Positions 11,899 to 44,373 of a stretch of DNA of 64,000 nt are shown piece after piece. The DNA lies in assembly GCF_011009555.1 (NCBI RefSeq), contig NZ_QXHD01000004.1, forward strand, positions 1,036,314 through 1,100,313, in the 5' to 3' direction. The notes under the pieces are model-generated. The model was not told the DNA's origin and searched no databases. It was given only the letters and a program-made list of their open reading frames with translations. The translations under genes and the position numbers were made by a program. Every line of letters begins with the position of its first letter. The stretch's first letter is position 1. The DNA is from Adonisia turfae CCMR0081. Its GTDB lineage: Bacteria; Cyanobacteriota; Cyanobacteriia; Phormidesmidales; Phormidesmidaceae.

Positions 11899-12459
11899 TT
11901 AAGAGTAGTGCCGCGTCTGTAGCACCATTTCGTCACGGGCACTAATAGCCCAGCTGTTATGAGGATTTAACTTCAGAGAATGATTAAAGTCCTGTAAGGC
12001 CTCATCATAGTGACCCATCAATTTAAATGTAGTACCACGGGAAATCAACCACTGCCAACGTTTAGACTGATCGAATTTGACCAAATAACTAAAATCACTT
12101 ACGGCGTTACCATAGTGACCCAAATCACGAAAAATAATCGCTCGATTAGCATAGGCCCATAAATTTTTAGGATCTAGATCAATCAACCGATCTAAATCAA
12201 CTAAAGCTGCTCGAGTTTGTCCCAAATGCACATACGTTAAAGCACGATGCTTAAGCGCTTGCGGGTGATTAGGACTAAGGGCAAGCGCCCTCTCAAAATA
12301 ACCTAGAGCTTCTTGATGAACCTGCCGTCTAGCTAATGCTAAACCTGCATCCACAAGTTGTTCAGGCGTTTGAATAGTAGACATCGCCACATCAGTTGTT
12401 ACCCTGGAACGGCGATGAGCGCGGCGTCTGTTGGAGTTTTGATTAAAAGGCGGGAACAT
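11899..12459 (-). CDS. Tetratricopeptide repeat protein
   Basis: 186 residues with a basic N-terminus (NRRRAHRRSR) followed by about four TPR units from residue 30 to the end. Typical TPR positions are seen in 'ALGYFERALALSPNHPQALK', 'ALVDLDRLIDLDPKNLWAY', 'AVSDFSYLVKFDQ' and 'ALQDFNHSLKLNPHNSWAI'. TPRs are protein-protein scaffolds, so no specific function can be given. No signal peptide is seen. The gene is convergent with argJ (180 bp) and divergent from the NTF2-like gene (290 bp apart). Confidence 0.8.
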   Translation of the reverse strand: MFPPFNQNSNRRRAHRRSRVTTDVAMSTIQTPEQLVDAGLALARRQVHQEALGYFERALALSPNHPQALKHRALTYVHLGQTRAALVDLDRLIDLDPKNLWAYANRAIIFRDLGHYGNAVSDFSYLVKFDQSKRWQWLISRGTTFKLMGHYDEALQDFNHSLKLNPHNSWAISARDEMVLQTRHYS

Positions 12460-12632
12460 TCGAGGACATGCTCATCATGATCGATTAAACCTATTCTGGC
12501 AAAAACACCTAACTTCTTATATAAAAAAGTAAGAATACCCAGAAGATTTCAGGATAGCTTCAAGAAGATTAAAGTTCTTCCTAAGTAGCTAAACCCTAAA
12601 TACAATAGGGCTTTCAAATACGCACAGCAATT

Positions 12633-12669
12633 TTGACAACAATCACTAATAGTTGTGACAACAGTCACA
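12633..12669. promoter_or_regulatory. Tandem CRP-type operator sites
   Basis: A perfect CRP/SyCRP consensus TGTGA-N6-TCACA lies at 12654-12669. A second, weaker copy (TTTGA-N6-TCACT form) is centred 22 bp upstream, two helical turns away. The perfect site is centred at 12661.5, about 62 bp before the predicted transcription start of the NTF2-like gene, matching the class I CRP activation geometry. Cyanobacterial SyCRP1-type regulators bind this consensus with cAMP. The link is inferred from sequence only. Confidence 0.65.
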
Positions 12670-12691
12670 GTAGTGTATCAGGAAGATTTTT

Positions 12692-12717
12692 TTGAGCGAT
12701 TAAACTTTTCTTATACT
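12692..12717 (+). promoter_or_regulatory. Predicted promoter of NTF2-like gene
   Basis: A -10 box TATACT at 12712-12717, with a poor, closely spaced -35-like TTGAGC at 12692-12697 (14-bp spacer). A weak -35 combined with an upstream activator site is typical of an activator-dependent promoter. Confidence 0.45.
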
Positions 12718-12749
12718 CACAGTTATCCAACTAATGTGAACAGATCAAG

Positions 12750-13190
12750 ATGAATCAAGCCGTCCATAGCATTCAGTCTATCTATGAAGCCATTAACCAT
12801 CGAGATGTTTCTCAAGCAGTAGCCTTGATCGATGACCAATGCTGTTACGAAGACCTGAACTTTTCAGCCACGTTTATGGGCAAAGCAGCAGTCCAAGGGT
12901 TATTTACTGAGTCATGCCAGGCCGTACCAGCGGATTTACAGTTTGTGATCGATGATATGGCCGGAGACGATTTAGCAGTTGGGGTCACCTGGCATGTCGA
13001 ATTGGACGGGATCGCCTTCCCCAATGGGCGCGGTGTCAGCTTCTATCGCTTTTCCCCAAATAGTGGCAAACTCATTTTTGCCCGTGACTGCGTCGAACCA
13101 GCTCTAAAACCTGGCAAAGCTGCGTTTGCTATTATCCGCTTGGTTACGCCTTTAGTGCGCTATTGGTTAGGACGTCAAAACGTTCATTGA
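12750..13190 (+). CDS. SnoaL-like / NTF2-fold protein
   Basis: 146 residues with the NTF2-like pattern: an N-terminal helix 'IQSIYEAINHRDVSQAVALI' followed by 'DDQCCYEDLNFSATFMGKAAV' and an antiparallel sheet ending 'FYRFSPNSGKLIFARDCVEP'. This cone-shaped fold holds small hydrophobic ligands or acts as a ketosteroid-isomerase-like enzyme; no catalytic residues can be assigned. The next gene starts 18 bp downstream on the same strand, so the two form an operon. The upstream region has a perfect CRP-type site, suggesting cAMP control. Confidence 0.75.
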   Translation: MNQAVHSIQSIYEAINHRDVSQAVALIDDQCCYEDLNFSATFMGKAAVQGLFTESCQAVPADLQFVIDDMAGDDLAVGVTWHVELDGIAFPNGRGVSFYRFSPNSGKLIFARDCVEPALKPGKAAFAIIRLVTPLVRYWLGRQNVH

Positions 13191-13208
13191 GCCCTGACAA
13201 ATTCGACT

Positions 13209-13964
13209 ATGCCTTCTTCTTCATCCTCCCCTGAATCCACATTACCCACCTCGAAACAAGAATCAGTCAGTCTATGTAGACTATTGTGGGTAGCCACCAT
13301 TGTGTATGTGGGTCTACTCCTGCTATCACCCCCCAACTGGTTACCCGGGGAACCCATCTGGGCTATTCAGCCAGATACTATCCAAGAAATTACTAACGAA
13401 TCACTTAATTTCTTTTTTATTCTTCCACTTTTAAATCTTGCAGGTGTTAGTTACTTACAAGCGCCGATGGTCAATCCAGCTGCGCAAGTTTTTTTTAACC
13501 TGGCAGAAGCCTGGATCTTTATGTTTCTGCCTCTGATGATGATGGATGAGCGTAGTCAGCACCTACCAAAATTAATGGTCTGGGGACTGGCAATGTTTTT
13601 CACCAATGTGTTTTTAATGCCTTATATGGCTCTACGCCTCCAGCAGCCAGTACCTGAGACTACACTCGAACCAACCAAAGGCATCCTTGTTCGCTTTTTC
13701 GGAGCATTAGGCCTAACAGTGGGTAATCTGGCCATTATCTGGTTTTGCCTTAACCGACCTGAATTAGGTGGCGCATTAAGTCGCTTTAGTTATTTGGGAG
13801 AGCAAATTACCCATAACCGAGTCACTCTGGCCTTTGTCGTAGATATAGCACTGTTTTGGGTATTTCAGAGCTGGCTGATGGGGGCTGTTATGCCTGTGGG
13901 GGGGCGGCTAAGAGGATTACGATTTATTCCATTCTGGGGCTTAGCAATCTGGTTATTGGTGTGA
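13209..13964 (+). CDS. Multi-pass membrane protein of unknown function
   Basis: 251 residues with about six predicted membrane segments: near 25-42 (LLWVATIVYVGLLLLS), 65-80, 90-115, 120-138, 160-180 and 200-220. A Ser/Pro/Glu-rich cytoplasmic N-terminus precedes the first span. No transporter or enzyme motif is recognised. It probably shares a transcript with the NTF2-like gene, 18 bp upstream. Similar two-gene pairs are plausible in other cyanobacteria, but this was not checked. A small hairpin (13973-13992) and a second one (14007-14035) follow the stop codon. Confidence 0.65.
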   Translation: MPSSSSSPESTLPTSKQESVSLCRLLWVATIVYVGLLLLSPPNWLPGEPIWAIQPDTIQEITNESLNFFFILPLLNLAGVSYLQAPMVNPAAQVFFNLAEAWIFMFLPLMMMDERSQHLPKLMVWGLAMFFTNVFLMPYMALRLQQPVPETTLEPTKGILVRFFGALGLTVGNLAIIWFCLNRPELGGALSRFSYLGEQITHNRVTLAFVVDIALFWVFQSWLMGAVMPVGGRLRGLRFIPFWGLAIWLLV

Positions 13965-14584
13965 TTGCCCCCCATGTCCAGAAAGGGACATGCCTCCATG
14001 CCTGGATATTCAGTGATTTCGCTCACCACTGAATAACTATCGATATCACTGGGAGTTATCACCTACGTCACCGGCATAGGCTAGTAATATCACAGGTTTT
14101 GAGCCACGAAATCACATCAAGGATGCCTTATCTGGGAGATTATTAAATCAATCCAATAAACGGATTTAATCCAAAATTGGAGTTCCTGAAAAGCGACACA
14201 CAGTAATTACTGGCAATCTGCTGTACGCACTGTGCTCCTTGCATTGGGATCTTGCCTGGGCTAAGCCCTTGACAAATTCTCCTCACACTGTTTCCTTCAC
14301 ACAGATCAAGAACATTTGCTCTTCTAGTGATCCTAGGGGAGCTTTTTTTTAGACAAACACCTATCGTTTGGCGCACTTTATCGTTGGGTACCCATAGTTC
14401 ACAACATCAGTTATTGCTGAAAGCTATCAATAGCAACCGCTGTGTGCGCAGCAAGTTCTTGAAGGTATTCAGCAGTTTGCTATAGGTCAGGATTCAAGCA
14501 AATCATAAAGATTTGCAATCTCCACTACAAATCGATCTAAGCTAATCAGAATAGGGTTTTGAAGCGAGGGTCAACAGCGTCCTA
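13965..14584. other. Gene-poor interval upstream of aspC
   Basis: About 620 bp. It holds two hairpins just after the membrane-protein gene (CATGTCC/GGACATG stem at 13973-13992; 9-bp stem TATTCAGTG/CACTGAATA at 14007-14035), then a minus-strand open frame (14143-14376, 77 codons) of unknown identity that reads like a cysteine-rich remnant, then copy 1 of a dispersed repeat (14368-14485). The aspC promoter must lie between about 14485 and 14584. Confidence 0.5.
14368..14485 (+). repeat. Dispersed repeat, copy 1 (upstream of aspC)
   Basis: It is related to the element at 16008-16122. The two share a start TTGGCGCA, an identical 23-bp core (14400-14422 here), a following 'AGCAAC' segment, and an end TTTGCTATA. 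In this copy the terminal palindrome is degenerate. The two copies lie in the same orientation on either side of aspC. Confidence 0.7.
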
Positions 14585-27301: not shown

Positions 27302-27484
27302 AGCGGTCTGGTTTGCGCTCTAGCCATGTATAAACTACACGGTTTCGACGATTTTCTGATGATGCTTTGGTAGAAATATAGGCAATCTTTGCCTTTGCTC
27401 CGTATTCTTAGTTTAGATAAGCTTTCAGGAGACAGAGGGGCATTCCCCCTGGAGGTAATACACATCCAGGGCAGGACCAGCAGT

Positions 27485-31569: not shown

Positions 31570-31896
31570 AACCAGGACAAAACTAGAGTCCTCAAGCTCC
31601 GATCAGGGCTATCAGCATGGTTAACTACTCCCCATCGTCCCTTCTCCAATCCCCATCGATTCCCAAATTCCAATCTCTCTGAGCAGTCATTACCAAGGAA
31701 ATCCTAAAATCCTGATAAAGTCATATAAAGCATTCGTACGGTTGCTTAAGCAGCATTAAGTTACGTTACTTAAACAGTTGCTTGAGTAAACAAGGGTTCC
31801 TAGGGGCGTCTTGCCAAGCGGTTGAATTCGCAAAGCCGTTCATGTCTGCTTTTGAAAACGCCCTTTTATAAATGTCTGATTTATAGACCCGTTTAG
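31570..31896 (+). promoter_or_regulatory. Leader region of GT4 gene with tRNA-like fold
   Basis: About 330 bp without a gene. At 31803-31864 a GGGGCGT/ACGCCCT stem (one G-T pair) encloses an arm like a tRNA D-arm (TTGC, loop with AAGCGGTT, GCAA) and a shorter second arm, and the right stem runs into TTTT. It ends 32 bp before the GT start codon. A complete tRNA is not formed: there is no T-arm. Confidence 0.35.
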
Positions 31897-43521: not shown

Positions 43522-44373
43522 CTTTCAGTACTCCAGCTGTAAAAAATCAGCCTAGTGATAAATCACTTGAACTTTAAAGAAGCAGGAAAATCTAGTCAGG
43601 AACTATATCAGCATCTTTTGATTCATAACCTCTAGTCGGGTAGCATTGGTCTACATATACTTACGTATGTCTTAGACACGGGCTATTAGCGTACTGGGTC
43701 ATCAGCCCAGAGTAACTTTGATCTCACCATCAAAATTGCAGTTTAATGTGGCAGTTTTTAAAACGTGTCAACTATCCACTGACATAGTTTAAGAATCGCC
43801 TAGCCTGACTTATATAGGGTGCTTACTAGTAGTGACTTCGCTTGTTGCAATTTGAGGAACATCACAATTTTCATACTCTAGATGCCAGTTAATTGTTGAT
43901 TTCAGTCAGTTTACTGATTATTTAGCAAAAGTTCGTTAAACATTAGTGGAATGTTCTGATCTACAGCGTCCGACCGAGAAATACTGAGTCCTGGCTACGC
44001 TAATTTGCAGTGATCAAAATCGGTTTTGATACTGTGACCTGCTCCTAGGCTTTATCAGTTTTTTAGAAAATTGATGAGTGCCATGAAGTTCTGATGTCCC
44101 CACCGAATTCTCACGGTTAGTCACTGGTTCATTTGAAAAGATGGGCATAATTCTATTGAAGATATCTGGGAATAGTTGCTAGGTGTCTCTGGGGCCAATT
44201 TCGTATGGTTACAGCTAGTCAAGACCTCGATCTAGAACTTAGTCCTATCCTTTTTCTATCAATGGGATTGCTTGTTGAAATCTATATACCTTAAATTTCA
44301 GATTTAATCTCTGATATTGCTCAGTATTATTACCCTCTCCGTCCTACTTAGTTCCTTTCCCCAGTGAGGTTCA
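43522..44373 (+). promoter_or_regulatory. Long upstream region of the exopolysaccharide operon
   Basis: 852 bp with no convincing gene on either strand; the longest plus-strand frame near the operon is 29 codons. It separates the Gld-like cluster from the first EPS gene and must contain the operon promoter. The size suggests a long leader or several regulatory sites. No named motif (JUMPStart, NtcA) was recognised. Confidence 0.5.

Follow-up and report, generated by a model that had tools for sequence, protein, structure and literature searches.

A conserved predicted tandem CRP-type operator in the divergent TPR/NTF2-like regulatory region of Adonisia turfae and related cyanobacteria

The window examined here, a 64,000-nucleotide stretch at 1.036–1.100 Mb of contig C11 in the genome of Adonisia turfae CCMR0081, contains a pair of CRP-type sites in the intergenic region between a gene for a TPR-repeat protein, read to the left, and genes for an NTF2-like protein and a hydrophobic protein, read to the right (Table 1). 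An earlier sequence-only reading of this DNA, in whose account of the region the divergent TPR gene is absent, had described a perfect TGTGA-N6-TCACA about 62 bp before a predicted start and, 22 bp farther from that start, a weaker copy; both are present, and the start of site 1 lies exactly 22 bp from that of site 2, on the upstream side. The genes to the right, which the same reading had called two uncharacterised genes, are two frames in the window, but 12750–13964 corresponds to a single open frame of 353–461 aa in seven of the 13 genomes that have the NTF2-like gene. Because of this fusion, the two proteins probably cooperate. The structure prediction for the membrane protein had a mean pLDDT of 44.9 and was not used.

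Table 1. Positions of the features discussed (window coordinates, except for the regulator gene)
Feature	Position	Strand	Remarks
Site 1, weaker CRP-type copy, TTTGACAACAATCACT	12632–12647		two mismatches; sequence read and pattern search
Site 2, perfect CRP-type TGTGA-N6-TCACA, TGTGACAACAGTCACA	12654–12669 (centre 12661.5)		sequence read directly
TATACT, candidate −10 box of the NTF2-like operon	12712–12717	+	read directly; missing from two of the six orthologues
Conserved non-coding block holding both sites, about 200 bp	12496–12691		most conserved part 12496–12580
Divergent TPR-repeat protein gene, 186 aa	11899–12459	−	fixed distance from the sites
NTF2-like/SnoaL_2 protein gene, 146 aa	12750–13190	+	
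Hydrophobic, probably membrane protein gene, 251 aa	13209–13964	+	in some relatives one frame with the NTF2-like gene
Putative SyCRP1-like protein gene	C11:6001911–6002627 (G000)		one of the PF13545 hits of the genome

If TATACT is taken as the −10 box, the +1 that it implies at about 12724 would place site 2 at about −62.5 and site 1 at −84. The −35 had been called poor, and this is confirmed, because a search of the + strand of 12380–12800 found no sigma-70-like promoter. CRP-type matches with up to two mismatches occur in the 64-kb window at chance level (29 observed, 29.55 expected), and the 8.66 Mb genome has nine perfect sites, where uniform random sequence would give about eight. Since these counts are close to chance, a site alone proves nothing, and the evidence lies in its conservation, together with the spacing, in relatives.

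Conservation in relatives was one of the checks that the sequence-only reading had named, and six of the eight genomes of the genus (Leptothoe-like) retain both sites at the 22-bp spacing. The carriers include Leptothoe kymatousa, and the nearest named relative found is Leptolyngbya sp. PCC 7375; the two genomes lacking the pair are drafts with completeness ratings of 70 and 93%. At E 1e-3, a 231-bp region was matched in eight of 63 genomes of the order. Six of these matches were strong (3e-43 or better), all of them among the eight genus genomes, and the other two were short and weak. The tandem pattern (up to two mismatches, 22 bp) occurred in six of 388 genomes of the class, one copy each, and these were the same six genomes of the genus; the reversed control of the pattern gave none in the 388. 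All six orthologues keep the spacing of 22 bp and a perfect TGTGAN6TCACA at site 2, while site 1 has one to three mismatches. Among five divergent genomes, 13 of the 16 columns of site 1 and 14 of the 16 of site 2 are invariant (27/32 together), compared with one of the six columns of the linker (12648–12653) and 11 of 150 four-fold synonymous sites in the three flanking genes, which are thus nearly saturated. Because the site columns are so much more invariant than the linker and the four-fold sites, we conclude that the pair has been kept by selection. No homologue outside the genus had the tandem sites; at six loci of NTF2-like homologues outside the genus, the 320 bp upstream contained no site with up to two mismatches.

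The sequence-only reading had placed the pair in class I position before the NTF2-like operon. A simple activator-dependent promoter that serves only the NTF2-like/membrane operon, with sites at −62 and −84, is in our judgement possible but doubtful, and the assignment to this promoter is partly supported. In agreement with it are the poor −35 and a −10-like hexamer 41–44 nt past site 2 in four of the six orthologues, two of which are near-identical strains (TATACT or TATATT in the window, L023 and L028; AATATT in L027). However, L024 and L026 have no such hexamer at the expected place, and the −10 of most known CRP-activated promoters of two cyanobacteria lies about 22 bp past the site, not 42 bp, according to Xu and Su (PMC2633013). 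The distance from the perfect site to the NTF2-like start is also not constant across orthologues (87–89, 129 or 167 bp), whereas that to the TPR start is steady at 201–203 bp in the five of six carrier genomes measured. Since the NTF2-like start codon may shift without a move of the transcription start, the varying distance makes the class I claim less likely rather than untenable. A TPR orthologue (E 5.6e-88 or better) is present in six of the eight genus genomes, the same six that carry the element. With the search of the genus genomes as positive control, none was found at 1e-25 in 15 genomes lacking the element, six of which have the NTF2-like gene. Across the genomes compared, the element goes together with the TPR gene. 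Given this co-occurrence and the fixed distance, the TPR gene is no less likely than the NTF2-like unit to be a target; the operator may serve both sides, so that a divergent pair, and no longer a single operon, is the likely target.

The conserved block that holds the sites ends at a T run on the + strand, beyond which the sequences diverge. In the five divergent genomes, 69 of 85 columns are invariant in 12496–12580 and 23 of 51 in 12581–12631; as the former part is as conserved as the sites, constraint is not confined to them. In 12496–12580, TTCTTA-N10-TAAGAA forms an inverted repeat and the word GAAGATT recurs. Of the intergenic stretches in the window, 27 reach 100 bp or more, and 17 of these were matched in G007; ranked by E-value, the operator intergenic region comes second in that genome (247 bp, 88%) and fourth in G005. 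By sequence comparison, its conservation is at the top end of the window but not unique, as others are also well conserved. Five other intergenic regions (1485–1788, 14474–14584, 27302–27455, 31648–31896 and 44029–44373) are 78–88% identical to G007 and have no Rfam match. A search of phage records gave no match.

Long and deep conservation with a + strand T run at the end could also mark a structured RNA, either a small RNA or a − strand 5′ leader of the TPR gene, in which the inverted repeats would form hairpins with CAACAA as a conserved loop. The fold z-scores in five genomes (− strand, −1.1 to −2.7; + strand, +0.05 to −3.7) go some way in this direction. We nevertheless consider an RNA improbable: among six sequences from five distinct lineages, a compensatory change on both sides was seen in only one of 45 predicted pairs, with an unfavourable covariation term, no Rfam family scored above its gathering threshold, no terminator or terminator-like hairpin was found on the + strand, and the stem at site 1 would have only three pairs.

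Slightly less probable again is that the operator belongs to another Crp-family regulator, NtcA above all, or that an unrelated protein reads the whole word TGACAACAATCAC. The genome has 12 PF13545 hits, nine of them over the cut-off, site 2 fits a loose TGT-N10-ACA, and the spacer CAACAA is conserved along with the arms in both copies; CRP is not known to require a conserved spacer. Against NtcA, none of the six orthologues contains GTAN8TAC, and TGT is missing from site 1; against a reader of the whole word, its 13 letters, allowing up to one mismatch, occur 25 times in the genome and those of the reversed control 23 times, without excess. Words of the FNR, CooA, HLR1, LexA and Fur-like types were looked for by their consensus sequences and none was found, only the loose TGT-N10-ACA fitting. 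A small + strand gene inside the block is hardly credible, since the one + frame that is stop-free across 12496–12580 in five genomes has no start or stop common to all, and differences there fall 22/40/18 by codon position, with 63 non-synonymous against 7 synonymous in pairwise comparison.

The sequence-only reading had further suggested that the genes would belong to a cyanobacterial cAMP/SyCRP regulon, for which the genome has a matching regulator, a putative SyCRP1-like protein with an RETVTR helix, and 17 PF00211 hits for class III nucleotide cyclase domains. Crp-family regulators of solved structure, and also E. coli CAP, are among the matches of this protein. Its match to the NCBIfam CRP model, whose cut-off is set for enterobacterial-type CRP, is 2.5e-21 with 76 of 266 bits; being far below this cut-off, the protein counts by that test as CRP-like but not as an equivalog. 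Copies with 91–100% identity are present in seven of the eight genus genomes, the eighth being 70% complete; that of G006 has one stop reported in the matched stretch, yet a 234-aa frame is open. The recognition helix, GLARETVTRVL, is identical in all seven genomes, and RETVxR was not found among the other aligned Crp-family paralogues. In E. coli CRP, an RETVxR helix reads TGTGA. A second CRP-like protein, L102 with its relatives (L099–L104), has a degenerate recognition helix, which we take to recall that of SyCRP2.

The regulon claim also gains from the spacing of sites across the genus. We counted 105 TGTGA-N4..8-TCACA sites in G000, G002, G004, G005 and G007, leaving out G001, G003 and G006, which have 5, 10 and 18 sites. 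The N6 spacing accounts for 40 of the 105, compared with 21 expected at equal shares (p 1.4e-5), and 31 of these 40 are intergenic, compared with 23 of the 65 sites with N4, N5, N7 or N8 (Fisher p 2.4e-5). For the intergenic calls, genes were open frames chosen by length and not by annotation, and one N6 site inside a frame of 80–99 aa was counted as coding. The sites of related genomes are not independent, and G000 and G004 are near duplicates; without G004, N6 has 30 of the 84 sites (p 6e-4), and 24 of these 30 are intergenic, compared with 19 of the 54 with other spacings (p 7.6e-5). In the window's genome alone, the N6 excess is not significant (9/34, p 0.23); the signal in the counts is thus one of the genus, contributed mainly by G002 and G005, and by G004 when included.

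Some perfect CRP-type sites recur before the same genes, which are named here from our reading of their translations and not from tool results. Such sites lie before an alpha-amylase-like gene in G000, G004 and G007 (L003, L167, L142); between a peptidase-like and a divergent debranching-type gene in G000 and G004, with the peptidase side in G007 (L007, L175, L154); and before a purL-like gene in G002, G005 and G007 (L137, L182, L186), there with a weaker copy 31 bp off. Perfect sites also recur at a divergent pair of 158–174 and about 470–500 aa in G000, G002, G004 and G007, and before a repeat protein gene in G000, G004 and G007. Among the 32 sites examined, a partner at exactly 22 bp was found only at the window locus and its orthologues.

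A wider interpretation, which we offer tentatively and think unlikely to hold in full, is a cAMP-CRP regulon that would be confined to this marine genus and comprise the alpha-amylase-like, debranching-type/peptidase, purL-like and TPR/NTF2-like loci, with a second conserved signal in 12496–12580. If true, cAMP would tie the breakdown of carbon stores to an uncharacterised membrane system, in a genus-specific regulon, through the roughly 200-bp element described here.

The interpretation that we favour, and consider probable, is a predicted tandem CRP-type operator of a SyCRP1-like protein in the divergent TPR/NTF2-like regulatory region. The reading as a CRP-type operator is well supported, and the pair, judged by its conservation in close relatives, is very probably a real switch of known type. 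In the mechanism that we envisage, two CRP dimers would occupy neighbouring positions on the same face of the DNA, the 22 bp corresponding to two helical turns, and bound CRP would set the transcription of the TPR gene on the left and of the NTF2-like/membrane unit on the right. Binding by the SyCRP1-like protein, the role of cAMP, the sign of the regulation and the responding promoter are what we infer in this mechanism. A conserved operator of fixed geometry and a short list of conserved sites in the genus offer concrete candidate CRP targets.

Our literature search found no paper naming this operator, although one may exist. In E. coli, class I CRP promoters have a site near −61.5, and tandem sites stand in helical phase. 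The present locus resembles them if the candidate TATACT is the −10 box; unlike them, it does not keep this geometry in all orthologues. NtcA promoters of cyanobacteria also have a palindromic site, bound by a protein of the same superfamily as CRP; superfamily and palindrome are alike, but the GTAN8TAC of NtcA is absent here. With the SyCRP1 (sll1371) regulon of Synechocystis PCC 6803, the locus shares the consensus, a Crp-family protein with a CRP-like helix and the lineage-specific nature of the targets. Few functions of CRP are known in cyanobacteria, as stated in a review (PMC10117731). An RNA-binding assay gave a negative result for SyCRP1 (PMC12475003). SyCRP1 also represses carbon-concentration genes, according to a 2026 review (PMC13249358), so activation at the operator should not be presumed. 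In 2009, Xu and Su predicted cyanobacterial CRP sites with the consensus TGTGAN6TCACA and lineage-specific targets, and their predictions include a TPR protein of strain ATCC 29413 (PMC2633013). The genus studied here lies outside the 12 genomes that they list, and tandem sites at 22 bp in a divergent TPR/NTF2-like region set the locus apart from their set. The operator would be a lineage-specific candidate CRP target, new but of a known kind.
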